Shown: positions 56,017-64,000 of the stretch, piece by piece | Position numbering within the stretch: position 1 is the first letter of the stretch | Layout: the number at the start of each line of letters is the position of its first letter | NCBI GenBank assembly: GCA_002779605.1 | Contig: PEWE01000033.1 | Span: 123,352-187,351, forward strand | Length of the DNA: 64,000 nt | DNA from: Zetaproteobacteria bacterium CG06_land_8_20_14_3_00_59_53 | Lineage (GTDB): Bacteria; Pseudomonadota; Zetaproteobacteria; Mariprofundales; Mariprofundaceae | Direction: 5' to 3' | Position numbers and translations under genes: made by a program | The notes under the pieces: model-generated | Database searches by the model: none | Told to the model about the DNA's origin: nothing | The model's input: the letters and a program-made list of their open reading frames with translations, nothing else

Positions 56017-56308
56017 ATGCGCGCGTTTCACACCTCAATCGCGGCGCGGCGCAGTGTAGCAAAATAATTCACATTTGCACCTGCCGAACCACCTGGTTCT
56101 GTAAAGCAAATCTTTGCAACAATATCCAGTCTGTCGCTCCGAACTGCGGAGACAGTGGAATCACGCGGGCTACGCACTCGCCCTGCGGGCCGCCGCAAGC
56201 GGCGTTCAAATCAGCACGCTGATTTGTCGAACCGTAGTCGCGGGTCCTCACCCACCCCTGCGATTCTCCCCTATGCTTCCACCACATCCAAGCTATTGCT
56301 TCTTCAAC

Positions 56309-56497: not shown

Positions 56498-57352
56498 TTA
56501 CAGATATCCCTCAAGTACCGGACTGTTGATTTCATCCGGGTTTTCCAGCTCCCACAAGCCGTTGAGGATACCGCGCGCAATCAGATGGATGATCGCCGCC
56601 TGAATCGCCTCCTGCGCCGCCATCTGACCAGGTTCGTTGTAGCTGTAACCCACATCCCCTTCGAGCAGCGCCTTGAAAGCAATAAAACGATAGACATTGC
56701 CTGCGATCTGCTCGGAAAGAATCGTCTTGCTGGTCTCAACCGTTTCCAGAATCCTTCCGTTGCGCACATCCACAGCGCGCAGCACGACCGTCACCTGATC
56801 GACCTGATAGCGATCGGAACCGCCGATCCCCAGATAGCGCGCGCCCTCGCCGCCGGTCTGTACATTGGTGTCGTAACCGACAATACCACCCTCGAAAAGC
56901 ACGCTGGCGGGAAGCAGCGTGGGCAACGGTGCCACCTTGGAGTTTTTGTCGTTCGCCGCCGTTGCGCGGTTCACCTTACGCTCGGTAAGCAGGTCCTGCA
57001 GCCCCTCGCGTTCGACAATATCGAACCACTGCGACTCCTTGAGTGAATGCATCAATATGGATGCGGCGCCCTGTGTCACCTGAGTGGAAATATTACTGGA
57101 AGGTGATGACTTATACTGCCCGGTCATGTCCCGGAAGTTGTACACAGCGGAAAGGATCTTACCCTTCGGTCGCGGTAGATTGAGCAGATCGCGATAGGTC
57201 GGGGTATTCGGCTGTTGCAGATAAGCCTGGTTCATAATGCCCACCGGGCGCTTGGCAACCGCCATGCCACAAGCACCTAGGAATCCGGGAATCAACAGTG
57301 CAAGCAGAAGTCCGCGGTAACGCCGCAGTGACGGCGTCGGAAAACATCTCAT
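56498..57352 (-). CDS. csgG: Curli secretion channel lipoprotein CsgG
   Basis: Lipobox LGACG; DLLNLPRPKGKILSAVYNFRDMTGQYKSSPSSNISTQVTQGAASILMHSLKESQWFDIVEREGLQDLLTERKV...LLPASVLFEGGIVGYDTNVQTGGEGARYLGIGGSDRYQVDQVTVVLRAVDVRNGRILETVETSKTILS. Confidence 0.97.
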   Translation of the reverse strand: MRCFPTPSLRRYRGLLLALLIPGFLGACGMAVAKRPVGIMNQAYLQQPNTPTYRDLLNLPRPKGKILSAVYNFRDMTGQYKSSPSSNISTQVTQGAASILMHSLKESQWFDIVEREGLQDLLTERKVNRATAANDKNSKVAPLPTLLPASVLFEGGIVGYDTNVQTGGEGARYLGIGGSDRYQVDQVTVVLRAVDVRNGRILETVETSKTILSEQIAGNVYRFIAFKALLEGDVGYSYNEPGQMAAQEAIQAAIIHLIARGILNGLWELENPDEINSPVLEGYL

Positions 57353-57360
57353 AGCAAGAC

Positions 57361-57780
57361 CTAGTTAACCTGAAAGAACGTGGTCTGACCGGTATTTCTA
57401 TCCGTCGTGGTCACGGTCAGCGGCCCGTTGGCCACAGGCTGGGACACTACGATCGTGAAATCCGTTGTCGTAATCGTGCCCGGAACCAGGGCGCCATTTG
57501 CACCGATGATGGTTCCCGTCACAGAAGCTGCGATACGGTTGAGCACGAACTGCTGCAGGTTCTGATTGAACTGCTGCAAGGGTGTCAGCTGGGCCAAAGC
57601 ATTCACTGCTGCAGGATCCTTGTAGTTATTCTGGGCATTGGCGCTTGCCAGGAGCCCTGGGGCATTATTCGGGTTTCCCCCGAAAACCGGATTCACCGGG
57701 GTGTAGACAATCTGCTCGGCAAAGACATTCACAGAGCCCATGATAAGCATGGCTGCACAGGTAAATAGCATCTTCTTCAT
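57361..57780 (-). CDS. csgF: Curli assembly protein CsgF
   Basis: QIVYTPVNPVFGGNPNNAPGLLASANAQNNYKDP...; adjacent to csgG. Confidence 0.93.
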   Translation of the reverse strand: MKKMLFTCAAMLIMGSVNVFAEQIVYTPVNPVFGGNPNNAPGLLASANAQNNYKDPAAVNALAQLTPLQQFNQNLQQFVLNRIAASVTGTIIGANGALVPGTITTTDFTIVVSQPVANGPLTVTTTDRNTGQTTFFQVN

Positions 57781-57823
57781 TCTTGCCTCCTCTTTACCTC
57801 AAACATTTCAGGGCTGGCAGAGC

Positions 57824-58252
57824 CTACAGCTCGTCCCCTGCTAAATCACCACCCTGTGATAGCAACCCGTCAAGCTGCGACTGACTTAGCTTCGCACTAA
57901 CCACAGCCGCTGCCTGAATGGCTTTGGCATTTATATACTGATCAGCAGCATAAACAACGGTCTGGAAAAGAATTGCTTCCCTGTATTCGATGCTTATCAG
58001 GCTTCCGGATCGTTTGGACCGGGACTCCTTGAGTGTCACTGAATCGAAATACACATTGCCAACCTTCTCTGAAAGCAGAGGAACAAAGTACCGGTAAAAT
58101 TCATGTCCGGGATATGTGGTGGTTTGATCCAGTACAATTTTTCGCAAATTACGATCATTCGCACCGGCTGCTTCCACACTGCCTGCCAGTGAAAGCCAAA
58201 AGACAGAGCACAACAGCAAGCCGAAAATTCTTGCAGCGCTCCCGGAAAACAC
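57824..58252 (-). CDS. csgE: Curli assembly/adaptor protein CsgE
   Basis: GTG start; LDQTTTYPGHEFYRYFVPLLSEKVGNVYFDSVTLKESRSKRSGSLISIEYREAILFQTVV; adjacent to csgF. Confidence 0.88.
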   Translation of the reverse strand: MFSGSAARIFGLLLCSVFWLSLAGSVEAAGANDRNLRKIVLDQTTTYPGHEFYRYFVPLLSEKVGNVYFDSVTLKESRSKRSGSLISIEYREAILFQTVVYAADQYINAKAIQAAAVVSAKLSQSQLDGLLSQGGDLAGDEL

Positions 58253-59337
58253 TATTCCTGCCTCACCGTAACGTGTTTCGCCCTATTACCATAATTACTG
58301 CCAACATTGCCAACAGTGACATTCACATTATCAGCACTCTGCATCACTGAAATTGTGTTGCGATCCTCCGAACCGGTCAAACCACCCTGCAGAATGTTCA
58401 ATTTCGTATTATTCCCCGTTTGCAGGGCCCTCACATCATTGAACTGGCCCTCCTGATTTACTGAGAGATCGTTTTTGAAGCCTGACTGGATTGCCTGAAT
58501 GCTGTTGTTTTTTCCGCTTTGCTGAATATTCGCAGTCGCCTCGGCACCCGACTGCTCCAGAGATGCTGTCAGCTGGGAGGTTCCGGCATGGCTCTGCGTA
58601 ATATTTGCCGTGTCCTGAGCGTTGGTCTGAAACAGGGTCAATTTTGCCTGATCGGCCACCTGCCTGATCGTGGCCCCTCCACCGCTCCCGCTTTGCACAA
58701 TTGCTGCCTCATTGCCATCGCCCTGCTGCAGCATATTCAACCGATTGCCGGACGACGATTGCGCAATCTGCGCAAAGTTTCTATTGCCATATTGCTCAAC
58801 TGTCATGGTATTCTCCCGACCACCCTGTTCGACGAGAAGTACGCTATCCGTTCCTTCCTGGGTAATCGTTGCATTAGCCAACCTGTTCTGTTGAATTTGA
58901 AGAATCTGGGAAACGCCGGACTGACGGACACTCAACGTTGTTGCTTCTTCAATCTGTTCAATAGAAACAAGGTTTGAGCTACCTTCCTGATAAACGTCTG
59001 CAGTCTGAAAAGCATCGCGCTGCAACACGTCAACCACATTCAGATCACCTCGGGTTTCAACATTGGCACGGAAACTCTGATCACCTGCCTCACTTGCACT
59101 ACCCTGCTGAACCTTGGTGATATTACTGCTCCCCTGCTGATCGACTGTTACAAAAGCATCATTCGTTTGCACCTGTTCGATCGCCGCATTATTGCTGCTG
59201 CCTTCCTGATTGATCACTGCCGACGAATAATCGGCCGCTGCCACATTGGGAAGCAGTATGAATGCGAGTGTCAGGCAGAGGGCGCAATGCCGGATACCGG
59301 ATACTGCAAAGGATATGAGACTAGTTCTTTGCACCAT
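58252..59337 (-). CDS. Curlin-repeat protein with degenerate repeats, candidate minor/nucleator subunit (CsgB-like)
   Basis: MVQRTSLISFAVSGIRHCALCLTLAFILLPNVAAA signal; units such as INQEGSSNNAAIEQ, VEQYGNRNFAQIAQ, IQQSGKNNSIQAIQSGFKNDLSVNQ; C-terminus GNRAKHVTVRQE. Confidence 0.8.
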   Translation of the reverse strand: MVQRTSLISFAVSGIRHCALCLTLAFILLPNVAAADYSSAVINQEGSSNNAAIEQVQTNDAFVTVDQQGSSNITKVQQGSASEAGDQSFRANVETRGDLNVVDVLQRDAFQTADVYQEGSSNLVSIEQIEEATTLSVRQSGVSQILQIQQNRLANATITQEGTDSVLLVEQGGRENTMTVEQYGNRNFAQIAQSSSGNRLNMLQQGDGNEAAIVQSGSGGGATIRQVADQAKLTLFQTNAQDTANITQSHAGTSQLTASLEQSGAEATANIQQSGKNNSIQAIQSGFKNDLSVNQEGQFNDVRALQTGNNTKLNILQGGLTGSEDRNTISVMQSADNVNVTVGNVGSNYGNRAKHVTVRQE

Positions 59338-59761
59338 CGGCTTCCGGGTAGGAAGAGGAGAAAGTCGCAATCACATCGCCGGAATGTTTACAGCGAGAAC
59401 CCGGTATGCAAATACGCAGCTCAAGCTGCATGTTGTCGTGCTGTGCAAAGCTACCGAAACGCAATACCGGCCCCAGATCAACATCCTTGCCTTCCACTGT
59501 ATCGATGCGACCACCGTGACCCTCGGTAGATGTTCCGGCGGATCCTCGTTTGGTAATCCTGAGTTTATAATCAAATGTTGCGGTTCCATCCGAGCGTATG
59601 CTCGGGCGCAGTGTAACCGTGGCCGTATCGGCATCGTGTTTGAGATTGAAGGATGCTTCCATATCTGGTTGCCTGTGAGCATAGCTGTTCGGAATGAAGG
59701 TGCAAAACACAAAGCCCAGTGACAACAATGCACACGTTTTCACAATGCTTCCAGTCATCAT
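59321..59761 (-). CDS. Small secreted candidate CsgH/CsgC-like curli chaperone
   Basis: ~146-aa signal-peptide protein with beta-rich pattern (EASFNLKHDADTATVTLRPSIRSDGTATFDYKLRITKRGSAGTSTEGHGG...LRFGSFAQHDNMQLELRI) inside the csg operon; family assignment inferred from context and size. Confidence 0.55.
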   Translation of the reverse strand: MMTGSIVKTCALLSLGFVFCTFIPNSYAHRQPDMEASFNLKHDADTATVTLRPSIRSDGTATFDYKLRITKRGSAGTSTEGHGGRIDTVEGKDVDLGPVLRFGSFAQHDNMQLELRICIPGSRCKHSGDVIATFSSSYPEADGAKN

Positions 59762-59826
59762 TTCATCCCCCCAGCCACTATAGTCGGCTAACTTCGGTCA
59801 ATTTGCGATGCTGTGCCCCTGAGCAG

Positions 59827-59858
59827 AAAAAAAAGGGGACGGGCAAAGCCCATCCCCA
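59827..59858 (-). terminator. Rho-independent terminator after the 440-aa curlin gene
   Basis: Minus strand GGGGATGGGCTTTGCCCGTCCCCTTTTTTTT. Confidence 0.88.
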
Positions 59859-59875
59859 AATGGCGTTTCCGTTCG

Positions 59876-61198
59876 TTAGTTCTGCACAATGCTGGCTGAG
59901 TTGCCTGCACCACCACTCTGCGAAATATTGGCAGAATTAAAGCTACCATTCTGCTCGATGAATGCGCTATTGCGCTCACTGGCGGTGCCGGCACCTGTCT
60001 GTGAAATATTTGCCGCATTACCAGTACCGGTCTGCATAATTATTGCATCAGCATAGCTTGAAACCTGATCAATACTGGCCGTATTCAGGTCGCCGCTCTG
60101 CTCGACATTGATTTCGTTGTACGAACCGGTTGTATTCACAATGGCTGTGTTCAGATTGCCTTCCTGATCAATATCGACATTGTTAAAATCACCCAGCATC
60201 GCCAGTTCAGTGATGTTGCCATCACCGAGCTGCTCGACATCAGCCACATTGCCGTTACCTGTCAGGAATGCATCGGCAGAATTGTTGTTACCATTCTGCA
60301 CCAACTCTGCTGAGTTGCCGTCACCAGCCTGCTCAACCTCGGCAAAATTGTCGTTACCCATCTGCTCGATGCTGGCGATATTGTTATTACCTACCTGATC
60401 ATTGTCAGCGTTGTTGTTCACACCGGTCTGCGCAATATCTGCACTGTTGCCATTGCCTATCTGCTCGACACTGGCGTTGTTGCCATTGCCGTCCTGCTCG
60501 ATATTGGCAATGTTTGCTATACCGTCCTGCTCTACTCGAGCGACGTTTGCCAAACCATTCTGCTCAACTTCGGCGAAGTTTGAAGAGCCATTCTGTGTCA
60601 TATCAGCCTGATTGGAGTCACCCGTCTGATCCACATCCGCGGTATTGCTATATCCGGTCTGCGTCAGATCGGCAGAATTATTGCTGCCGATCTGCTCAAC
60701 ACTGGCATCGTTCGATGTTCCGGTCTGGGCCAGTTTCGCAGTATTATTGTTGCCCTGCTGGGCAACATCGGCGCTATTTTCGTTCCCAACCTGTTTGATC
60801 TCTTCAACCTTGTTTCCGTTACCCTTCTGGGCCACGCCAGCTGTGTTGTTGTCACCGTTCTGGTCAACATCAACAAAATTATGATCACCTGTCTGATCTA
60901 CTGTGGCTGCATTGCCGTTACCGGCCTGTTCGACATCAGCCTCGTTGATGTTACCGATCTGATTAATACTGGCGGTATTTGCATCCCCGGTCTGCTCAGC
61001 CTCGGCTTTGTTCACACTGCCGGCCTGATTTATGTCAGCTGTGCCGAAATTTACATCCACCTGCTCGACTACGGCTTCGTTGGAACTACCGACGGACTGG
61101 CTGATATCTGCGGAAGAGTTGCTTGTGGCAGCGTTGGCATAGGTCGAAACCGACATCATGACCAAGGCTGCTGCAATCGAGATATATTTTTTCATCAA
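59876..61198 (-). CDS. Giant CsgA-like curlin (440 aa, roughly 30+ tandem 11-residue units)
   Basis: Signal peptide MMKKYISIAAALVMMSVSTYANA; tandem GxxNxAxVxQx units, e.g. GNGNSADIAQT GVNNNADNDQV GNNNIASIEQM GNDNFAEVEQA. Confidence 0.92.
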   Translation of the reverse strand: MMKKYISIAAALVMMSVSTYANAATSNSSADISQSVGSSNEAVVEQVDVNFGTADINQAGSVNKAEAEQTGDANTASINQIGNINEADVEQAGNGNAATVDQTGDHNFVDVDQNGDNNTAGVAQKGNGNKVEEIKQVGNENSADVAQQGNNNTAKLAQTGTSNDASVEQIGSNNSADLTQTGYSNTADVDQTGDSNQADMTQNGSSNFAEVEQNGLANVARVEQDGIANIANIEQDGNGNNASVEQIGNGNSADIAQTGVNNNADNDQVGNNNIASIEQMGNDNFAEVEQAGDGNSAELVQNGNNNSADAFLTGNGNVADVEQLGDGNITELAMLGDFNNVDIDQEGNLNTAIVNTTGSYNEINVEQSGDLNTASIDQVSSYADAIIMQTGTGNAANISQTGAGTASERNSAFIEQNGSFNSANISQSGGAGNSASIVQN

Positions 61199-61231
61199 AC
61201 CTCCGGGTAGGGGGAAACTTTTCCACTTGTG

Positions 61232-61282
61232 CGTACCTTATGAAACCGTGATCTGGATCACAATCACCTTAATAGGTGACAA
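61232..61282 (-). promoter_or_regulatory. Curlin promoter module (copy 1): inverted repeat TCACCT-N4-AGGTGA, CRP-like box, -10 CATAAG
   Basis: TTGTCACCTATTAAGGTGATTGTGATCCAGATCACGGTTTCATAAGGTACG; 42/51 identical to the copy upstream of the 403-ORF curlin. Confidence 0.75.
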
Positions 61283-61334
61283 AAATTAATTGGCTTTAAT
61301 AAAAGTGGAAATAATCAGCAGGTTGGAAGAATTC

Positions 61335-61838
61335 CTATTCTTGCCTGATGTCAGCCAGGTTTCCGCTACCGCTTTGCTCAACGTTTACAGTATTGGAACG
61401 ACCTTTCTGGCCTACCTGAGCCACATTCTCATTTCCCAACTGTTCCACATCCACGCTATTGGAACTTCCGGATTGCTCAACGCTTGCAAGGTTCTGATCT
61501 CCCCGCTGATCAAGATCGACCATATTGTTCGAACCCGACTGTTCAACTCCGGCCGTGTTTCGATCCCCATCCTGCTCTATTTCAGCAAGATTTCCTGAGC
61601 CGGACTGCTGCAGATCGACTGTGTTTGCGTGTCCGGTTTGTTCGATTTTCGCCTGATTGTTTTTGCCGGACTGTGTGATGGCGGCTGTAGTAAAGTCGGC
61701 ATCCCGCTGCTCCACGGATAACCTGTTATGTGAACCGGCCTGACTCACTTCAGCATTTGATCGACTGCTTTCGGCCTGAGCGTTGATCGCCAGAGACAAC
61801 GTGAGCAAGACTGCAATGACTACGATATATCCTTTCAT
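61335..61838 (-). CDS. Short curlin-repeat protein (167 aa, ~11-12 units)
   Basis: MKGYIVVIAVLLTLSLAINAQA signal; GSGNLAEIEQD GDRNTAGVEQS GSNNMVDLDQR GDQNLASVEQS ... ending GSGNLADIRQE. Confidence 0.88.
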   Translation of the reverse strand: MKGYIVVIAVLLTLSLAINAQAESSRSNAEVSQAGSHNRLSVEQRDADFTTAAITQSGKNNQAKIEQTGHANTVDLQQSGSGNLAEIEQDGDRNTAGVEQSGSNNMVDLDQRGDQNLASVEQSGSSNSVDVEQLGNENVAQVGQKGRSNTVNVEQSGSGNLADIRQE

Positions 61839-61924
61839 CGTAAGACCCCGATAATTTCATATTTGGTACTCATATAGAGCCTGAAACTTGATCCCAGAAG
61901 TTGATAACAAACGCCTTAAACGCA

Positions 61925-61950
61925 GAAGGGCGGACCGAAGTCCGCCCCCT
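61925..61950 (-). terminator. UUCG-tetraloop hairpin after the upstream giant curlin gene (terminator/attenuator)
   Basis: Minus strand GGGCGGAC-TTCG-GTCCGCCC, weak downstream T tract. Confidence 0.65.
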
Positions 61951-61971
61951 TTAGCATTGCGATCTTTGAAC

Positions 61972-63141
61972 TTACTTCTGCTCGACGTTGGCCACGTTGC
62001 TGTTGCCGCCGCTCTGAGAAACAGAAGCAGTGTTAAAGTTGCCGGACTGCTCGACGTTGGCAACGTTGTAGCTGGAAGCCTGCATCACGTTGGCGACGTT
62101 GCTGTTGCCGGACTGCTCGATTTCAGCTTCGTTGCCATTGCCGATCTGTGCTACGCCAGCGACGTTAAGGCTGCCACTCTGGTCAACATCAACACTGTTG
62201 TCGTTACCCGTCTGGGCAACATCGGCGCTGTTGCCATTGCCGAACTGCTCGACTTCAGCTTCGTTGCCGTTGCCCTTCTGGTCAACATCGGCTGCATTGT
62301 TGGCACCCTGCTGGGCGATCTCGACACTGTTGTTGTTGCCGGCCTGGTCTGCATCAGCGATGTTGCCGTTACCGGTCTGGGACAGGTCAGCACGGTTGCC
62401 GTTGCCAAACTGCTCGACTTCAGCATCGTTGGCAAAACCAATCTGGTCGATGTTGGCGGTATTAGCGTCGCCCGACTGCTCAACAGCTGCAGTGTTGGAA
62501 GTGCCGGTCTGGTCAACATCAGCAACATTGGCGTTTCCGATCTGCTCGACAGAAGCAACGTTGTTGTCGCCGATCTGCTCGACTTCAGCGTTGTTGCCGT
62601 TGCCGGACTGGGTAACAGAAGCATCATTGCCGTTACCCTGCTGGGCAACTTCTGCCTCGTTGGCGTTGCCGCCCTGCGCAACATTGGCATCGTTGTTATT
62701 GCCGGTCTGAGCAACCGAAGCTTCGTTGCCGTTACCCTTCTGGTTCACGTCGGCATTGTTGCCGGCACCCTTCTGGGACACGGTAGCGGTGTTGTTGTCG
62801 CCGTACTGGTCGACATCAGCGGTGTTGCTGTCGCCGGTCTGGCTGACACGGCCAACGTTGCCGTTGCCGGCCTGCTCGACGTCTGCATTGTTCAGGCTGC
62901 CGACCTGCGAAACGCCGGCGCTGTTGCCGTTACCAGTCTGCTCGATCTCGGCGGTGTTCACGGAACCAGCCTGATCAATGGTGGCATCAGTAAAGCTGGC
63001 GTTATCCTGCTCAACGGTCGCATTGTTGGCGCTGCCGATGGTCTGGTTAACAGTGGCTGTGGAATTGTTCGTGGCTGCCTGCGCGTAGGATGCGAAGGAC
63101 ATAATCATAACGGATGCTGCAATTGCGATGGAACGTTTCAT
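61972..63141 (-). CDS. Giant CsgA-like curlin (about 30 tandem 11-residue units)
   Basis: MKRSIAIAASVMIMSFASYAQA signal; GNGNEASVAQT GNNNDANVAQG GNANEAEVAQQ GNGNDASVTQS GNGNNAEVEQI ... ; start codon at 63141. Confidence 0.92.
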   Translation of the reverse strand: MKRSIAIAASVMIMSFASYAQAATNNSTATVNQTIGSANNATVEQDNASFTDATIDQAGSVNTAEIEQTGNGNSAGVSQVGSLNNADVEQAGNGNVGRVSQTGDSNTADVDQYGDNNTATVSQKGAGNNADVNQKGNGNEASVAQTGNNNDANVAQGGNANEAEVAQQGNGNDASVTQSGNGNNAEVEQIGDNNVASVEQIGNANVADVDQTGTSNTAAVEQSGDANTANIDQIGFANDAEVEQFGNGNRADLSQTGNGNIADADQAGNNNSVEIAQQGANNAADVDQKGNGNEAEVEQFGNGNSADVAQTGNDNSVDVDQSGSLNVAGVAQIGNGNEAEIEQSGNSNVANVMQASSYNVANVEQSGNFNTASVSQSGGNSNVANVEQK

Positions 63142-63176
63142 AAATAAGGTAACTCCCCTTTTGTTTGAAATATGGC

Positions 63177-63227
63177 CGAACATTATGAATCTGTGATCCA
63201 GGCCACAATCACCTCAATAGGTGACAA
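63177..63227 (-). promoter_or_regulatory. Curlin promoter module (copy 2): inverted repeat TCACCT-N4-AGGTGA, CRP-like box, -10 CATAAT
   Basis: TTGTCACCTATTGAGGTGATTGTGGCCTGGATCACAGATTCATAATGTTCG. Confidence 0.75.
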
Positions 63228-63304
63228 GCTGGCGAAGACAGGACTCGATTCAATTTGTGTATGTGAACGTGTATTTTACAAACCCCGATTGCTCCGTTGA
63301 ATGG

Positions 63305-63895
63305 TTAGTGACCATCAAGTGAAATAAGGCCCAGACGGGTAGCTTCGTAAATCGCTTCGCTGCGCGAAGAAACATCAAGCTTTGTATAGATCCGCTTCAC
63401 ATGGGTACCGATCGTATTCGTGCTAACATTCAGGATTGCCGCCAGCTCCTTGCGTGAGAAACCCTTGAACATCAACTCCAGAACTTCCTTTTCCTTGGTG
63501 CCCAGCTGGGGGGGGGCATCGTCGGCAATCGGCTTATGGAATCTTCGCAAGATCATTCTGGCTATATCAGGACACAAAGGAGCACCACCCTCCCAAAGCT
63601 CCATCATGGCCTCGACAATCGCAACCGGACCAGCCGACTTCAACTTATACCCGGTTGCTCCCGCCTCTAGAGCCTTGAATACGTATGTATCCTCTTCATG
63701 GCTGGTCACCACCAGGCACTCAAGCAGAGGGTTCTCCTTCCGGGCAGCCCGGATCAACTCATACCCGTCACCGTCCTTAAGATCGATGTCGACGACGATA
63801 ACATCAGGATTGACTCGTCGAATCAGCGCCATCCCCTCTTCACAGCCACTGGCTGTTCCACGAAGCTCAATTCGGGCGTACTTATCAATTGCCAG
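63305..63895 (-). CDS. LuxR-type response regulator with N-terminally truncated receiver; candidate curli regulator
   Basis: In-frame sequence upstream of the listed ATG (63832) continues to a TGA at 63914-63916; CTG at 63895 follows an AGGAAGGGG Shine-Dalgarno-like tract. Contains VIVVDIDLKDGDGYEL...VVTSHEEDTYVFKALEAGATGYKLKSA...LGTKEKEVLELMFKGFSRKELAAILNVSTNTIGTHVKRIYTKLDVSSRSEA. Confidence 0.7.
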   Translation of the reverse strand: MAIDKYARIELRGTASGCEEGMALIRRVNPDVIVVDIDLKDGDGYELIRAARKENPLLECLVVTSHEEDTYVFKALEAGATGYKLKSAGPVAIVEAMMELWEGGAPLCPDIARMILRRFHKPIADDAPPQLGTKEKEVLELMFKGFSRKELAAILNVSTNTIGTHVKRIYTKLDVSSRSEAIYEATRLGLISLDGH

Positions 63896-64000
63896 CTCAA
63901 GCCCCTTCCTGAATCAGTGAGTTTACATTGGTAATTTTCTGTTTCTTCTTTTGTAATTAGCTGATTTTATTTATGTTTTATGTTACATTAGAACCGCATC

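Follow-up and report, generated by a model that had tools for sequence, protein, structure and literature searches.

A curli locus with four curlin genes, a truncated response regulator and a candidate matrix operator in a zetaproteobacterium

The window analyzed in this study, the whole 64,000-nucleotide stretch of contig PEWE01000033.1 from Zetaproteobacteria bacterium CG06_land_8_20_14_3_00_59_53, carries at 56498-63907 a run of genes that all lie on the minus strand: csgG, csgF, csgE, a degenerate curlin gene, a csgH/csgC-type gene, genes for curlins of 439, 167 and 389 aa (the first and last termed curlin439 and curlin389), and a NarL/LuxR-type regulator gene. The features are as follows, with profile match values.

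56498..57352, minus strand: csgG, outer-membrane secretion channel lipoprotein of 284 aa with lipobox LGAC (Pfam CsgG, 6.7e-63)
57361..57780, minus strand: csgF, 139 aa (Pfam CsgF, 1e-26)
57824..58252, minus strand: csgE, 142 aa, GTG start (Pfam CsgE, 2.3e-17)
58252..59337, minus strand: degenerate curlin of 361 aa, ATG start, candidate nucleator or minor subunit (Curlin_rpt, 9.3e-20 in 6 stretches)
59321..59761, minus strand: csgH/csgC-type periplasmic chaperone gene, 146 aa including signal peptide (NCBIfam CsgH, 3.2e-8)
59835..59857, minus strand: strong terminator-like hairpin with a 10-bp stem and 8 T, between curlin439 and csgH
59876..61195, minus strand: long curlin of 439 aa, 34 units or ∼17 repeats (Curlin_rpt, 8.3e-75)
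61264..61281, minus strand: palindrome TGTCACCTATTAAGGTGA, upstream of curlin439
61335..61838, minus strand: short curlin of 167 aa, 12 units (Curlin_rpt, 1e-48)
61972..63141, minus strand: long curlin of 389 aa, 31 units or ∼15.5-16 repeats (Curlin_rpt, 5.8e-96)
63209..63226, minus strand: palindrome TGTCACCTATTGAGGTGA, upstream of curlin389
63305..63907, minus strand: NarL/LuxR-type response regulator, 5'-truncated (GerE, 3.8e-15; Response_reg from profile position 36)
63908..64000, minus strand: terminal part of a repeat that occurs at seven contig ends, probably an insertion sequence; it extends to the end of the contig

A preliminary description of this DNA had proposed a curli locus with four curlin-repeat subunits, and the profile searches confirmed it: CsgG, CsgF and CsgE were each matched by their Pfam families, all four curlins were matched by Curlin_rpt above the curated cut-off, and csgE, csgF and csgG were free of frameshifts. 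The reading frames of every gene in the locus were intact, with the exception of the regulator. A profile search of the 2.37 Mb genome yielded no Curlin_rpt match outside the locus. Moreover, the locus was found to contain features beyond those described earlier, namely the truncation of the regulator, a division of the locus by terminator-like hairpins, and a palindrome common to the upstream regions of both long curlin genes.

Of the export proteins, CsgG shared 75% identity with its nearest zetaproteobacterial counterpart and CsgF shared 67% and 57% identity with the copies of two zetaproteobacterial relatives. The small protein previously put forward as a CsgH/C-like candidate was also supported. 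Taken alone, this protein scored just below the NCBIfam CsgH cut-off (33.5 bits against 35; E 3e-8) and matched Pfam at 7e-4. When a profile was built from the three zetaproteobacterial copies, the CsgH structure 2n59 was matched at 2e-4, and a 20-member profile, which takes in Aeromonas and betaproteobacterial proteins adjoining curlin genes, matched CsgC (2y2t) at 2e-11 and CsgH at 8e-9. The csgH-type gene occupies an equal position in both zetaproteobacterial relatives. In 2012, csgH was assigned to the Alphaproteobacteria (PMC3521004); in our survey, such a gene was present in 25 of 80 csg loci, and csgH beside csgE and csgF is therefore not peculiar to this genome.

The number of 11-residue units in the curlins was counted with a chain model, whose scores exceeded those of shuffled sequences more than tenfold. 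The model gave 31 and 34 units for the two long curlins, in good agreement with the ∼30 and ∼34 counted earlier by eye, together with 12 units for the 167 aa curlin and 22 for the 361 aa curlin. Among solved chains, the Pontibacter curlin 8c50 was closest to the 389 aa protein (4.7e-42). The C-terminus of the 439 aa curlin was closest to the sole long curlin of Mariprofundus UBA1536 (67% identity). Given that curlin389 and curlin439 also have a promoter sequence in common, the two genes probably arose by tandem duplication together with their promoters, and the closeness of the 439 aa C-terminus to the single UBA1536 curlin fits this history. The degenerate curlin, whose gene overlaps csgH by 17 bp, matched Curlin_rpt at about 9e-20 (361/372 aa) and retains regular Q and G columns that are kept in the relatives. 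Its scores for the CsgB and CsgA models were nearly equal (98.8 and 91.4 bits). Judged by its position next to csgE and its degeneracy, it is likely a nucleator or minor subunit.

Structure prediction, which the preliminary description had named as a check, was applied to the 389 and 361 aa curlins. The single-sequence AlphaFold model of the 389 aa curlin had regularly spaced strands of 6-7 residues and a model of the 361 aa curlin was all-beta (pLDDT 78.5), but the former reached a pLDDT of only 55, and fold searches with these two models returned no significant match for either. Because the 389 aa model is of low confidence and neither model found a fold match, it is homology to solved curlins, and not the models, that supports a probable beta-solenoid form.

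The terms "expanded" and "giant", which had been applied to this locus and its long subunits, proved to be overstated. The number of repeats in published curlins ranges from 4 to 62 and peaks locally at 5, 7-8, 15 and 22, the solved curlin 8c50 has 15.5 repeats, and genomes with up to 30 curlin copies have been reported (PMC10192328); up to six csgA/B copies had already been described in 2012 (PMC3521004). Among the 80 csg loci that we surveyed, 50 contained a curlin that was 380 aa long or longer. The maximum number of curlin genes per locus was three, and four were found in none when counted alike. In light of these published ranges and the survey, subunit length here is ordinary, and four curlins in one locus is high, yet not new.

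The distribution of signals between the genes bears on how the subunits might be produced. A GC-rich hairpin lies after curlin389, and the hairpin at 59835..59857 has the longest stem and T-run among the terminator-like sites of the region, the total number of which was not above that of shuffled sequences. Together with the hairpins, the palindromes suggest that the subunit genes form strongly expressed units of their own and the export genes a more weakly expressed one, a layout reminiscent of the split operons of E. coli. On this basis a working model can be outlined. The four curlins would be exported to the periplasm, where CsgH would keep them from early aggregation; CsgE and the CsgG pore would then pass them outward, and CsgF would link the pore to surface nucleation. 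The 389 and 439 aa curlins, ∼3 times the length of E. coli CsgA, would be the main fibre subunits, with the degenerate 361 aa curlin as nucleator or minor subunit and the 167 aa curlin as a short accessory copy. With palindromes upstream and hairpins limiting read-through, subunits would probably be produced in amounts exceeding those of the export machinery.

That four different subunits form a graded or composite fibre, as had been proposed, is speculation. The four curlins might instead form different fibres or serve different conditions. Each long curlin gene has its own upstream palindrome and is parted from the next gene by a hairpin, and Dueholm et al. suggest that additional copies may be under separate regulation (PMC3521004). 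Set against this, a single set of CsgG, CsgE and CsgF serves the locus, very similar repeats are common to all four proteins, and cross-seeding between curlins has been described (PMC10192328). We consider this alternative to be, on balance, somewhat doubtful.

CsgF was detected in only 3 of the 78 zetaproteobacterial genomes examined. The two curli-bearing relatives are Zetaproteobacteria bacterium Dive96_bin2.244 and Mariprofundus sp. UBA1536, and the order curlin, csgH, degenerate curlin, csgE, csgF, csgG is common to all three genomes as far as the contigs reach. The CsgG proteins of these genomes group in one clade (support 100/99), which is placed with modest support (84/65) beside mostly betaproteobacterial sequences. 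A tRNA-Ser pair and a tRNA-Arg downstream of the locus are also found in the nearer, same-genus relative. Because gene order and downstream tRNA genes are both present in that relative, the curli locus appears to have been inherited within the genus. The possibility of a tRNA-borne island was also considered and rejected, inasmuch as there was no sign of a recent island and the tRNA genes following csgG are common to the same-genus relative. Between the two tRNA-Ser genes, a match to RtT RNA was observed at 56144-56271 (46.1 bits; gathering threshold 45).

The LuxR regulator noted earlier at the head of the locus was correctly placed in the LuxR-type family, but the gene is not whole, its 5' end having been replaced by a 93-bp repeat. 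The phospho-acceptor Asp motif and the HTH are kept, whereas the start codon and the first receiver strand are gone: the ATG-started frame matches the receiver profile from position 36 only, and the frame upstream of this ATG contains no usual start codon. By comparison, the ortholog of a same-genus genome is complete, starts with VLIDDDD and matches the receiver profile from position 2. The 93-bp sequence at the window end also forms the ends of six other contigs, identical over 79-93 bases and with seven different flanks in all, and regulator homology starts exactly at the repeat boundary. Because identical sequence occurs at seven contig ends with different flanks, the element at 63908-64000 is most simply read as an insertion sequence, and probably is one. 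A search with its terminal pattern, allowing 3 mismatches, found only the seven known ends, hence no target duplication was obtained. To find a second junction, the gene preceding the regulator in Dive96_bin2.244 was traced; its ortholog here is located elsewhere, beside an apparent glycogen synthase gene, and the junction was not found. The regulator is not a CsgD ortholog, given that a MadR/NarL-type response regulator model fits it best and that the CsgD model covers only residues 70-164, mainly the HTH part. A complete regulator ortholog (59% identical, L054:8399-9022) was observed in a same-genus genome in which no curli genes were detected.

This adjacent response regulator probably once activated the locus, and its disruption by the inserted element would leave expression lost or driven by another input; given the truncation, this strain may not express the curli locus. 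It could be argued further that the whole locus is decaying, with its regulator lost to insertion, its csg genes unexpressed and the extra curlins meaningless for any present-day fibre. Besides the truncation by a repeated element, this view would draw on the detection of CsgF in only 3 of the 78 genomes and on Mariprofundus UBA1536, in which the curli-adjacent regulator is split between two frames (L064:154-818), a split that may reflect mutation or a sequencing error. However, the structural and export genes all remain open with conserved domains, the curlin repeats are in register, and both long curlin genes retain an intact upstream palindrome. Decay of the locus seems rather unlikely.

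The palindromes were compared across genomes. The pattern TGTCACCT-N4-AGGTGA had three sites in the genome, located upstream of curlin389, curlin439 and a secreted collagen-like gene (L149:8418-8791; palindrome at L149:8336) that encodes Gly-X-Y repeats (Pfam Collagen, 3.5e-15) and runs off the contig end. When one base was freed (TGTCACCT-N5-GGTGA), a fourth site was found upstream of the gene for another exported repetitive protein (L158:1501). In the relatives, the same freed pattern precedes csgH in Dive96_bin2.244 (L063:891) and the long curlin gene of UBA1536 (L064:860). Each of the 6 sites found in the three curli genomes is intergenic and precedes a csg gene or another gene for an exported protein; in the 75 other genomes of the class, 13 of 14 sites fall inside long open frames. 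The densities, 6 sites in ∼6.7 Mb versus 14 in ∼155 Mb, give a Poisson P of ∼4e-5 with rounded genome sizes, a value that is optimistic, as the motif was chosen after two sites had been seen and both copies in the window go back to a duplication. The intergenic placement before unrelated genes is the stronger point. This distribution suggests a matrix regulon, and we tentatively propose, at a little less than even confidence, that TGTCACCT-N5-GGTGA is the operator of a zetaproteobacterial extracellular-matrix regulon that would jointly control the long curlins, the collagen-like protein and the other exported repetitive protein. If so, amyloid and collagen-like fibres would be made together. 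An alternative, in which an RNA hairpin (attenuator) or a remnant of promoter duplication accounts for the palindrome, agrees with the ability of such inverted repeats to form hairpins and with the location of both window copies within homologous duplicated promoters, but it seems improbable when the palindrome also precedes unrelated genes (those for the collagen-like protein and another exported protein), recurs in two other curli genomes with differing flanks and has no Rfam match. A riboswitch was considered and set aside, the region upstream of the curlins having no Rfam match. CRP-like sequences follow both window palindromes (TGTGG-N6-TCACA and TGTGA-N6-TCACG), and they were given little weight, not being seen at the other palindrome sites.

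Taken together, the family matches for every csg component, the conserved gene order and the single zetaproteobacterial CsgG clade make it highly probable that these genes encode a curli system (type VIII secretion; nucleation-precipitation) with the subunit roles and regulation proposed above, the fibres being deduced from the genes. The locus belongs to a known type; the damaged regulator and the candidate matrix regulon are the parts worth following. Iron-oxide mats and stalks are a known feature of Zetaproteobacteria, and the host is a relative of the marine iron-oxidisers. In the literature that we searched, no report of curli in Zetaproteobacteria was found, "Zetaproteobacteria" and "curli" co-occurring only as single mentions of either word, and Mariprofundus was nowhere paired with amyloid. 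The curli locus and its candidate common operator offer a testable handle on the building of a protein matrix in some Zetaproteobacteria.

When compared with the curli system of E. coli (csgBAC/csgDEFG), the locus is alike in its curlin-repeat subunits, CsgE, CsgF, CsgG, a CsgC-type chaperone and a LuxR-type regulator. It differs in lying on one strand only, in having two long curlins and two further curlins, in its CsgH-like chaperone, and in its NarL-like truncated regulator in place of a CsgD ortholog. The long curlins of Pontibacter korlensis (R15.5; 8c50), Pseudomonas and Aeromonas share with those described here ∼15-17 repeats, the Q/G/N motif and the length class, whereas the present locus combines three tandem curlins of unequal length with a degenerate one. 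Finally, the alphaproteobacterial csgH-bearing curli operons (PMC3521004) and CsgC-like chaperones are similar in that csgH adjoins csgA/B; in this zetaproteobacterium, by contrast, csgH occurs together with csgE and csgF, an arrangement that the 80-locus survey also found in several beta- and gammaproteobacteria.
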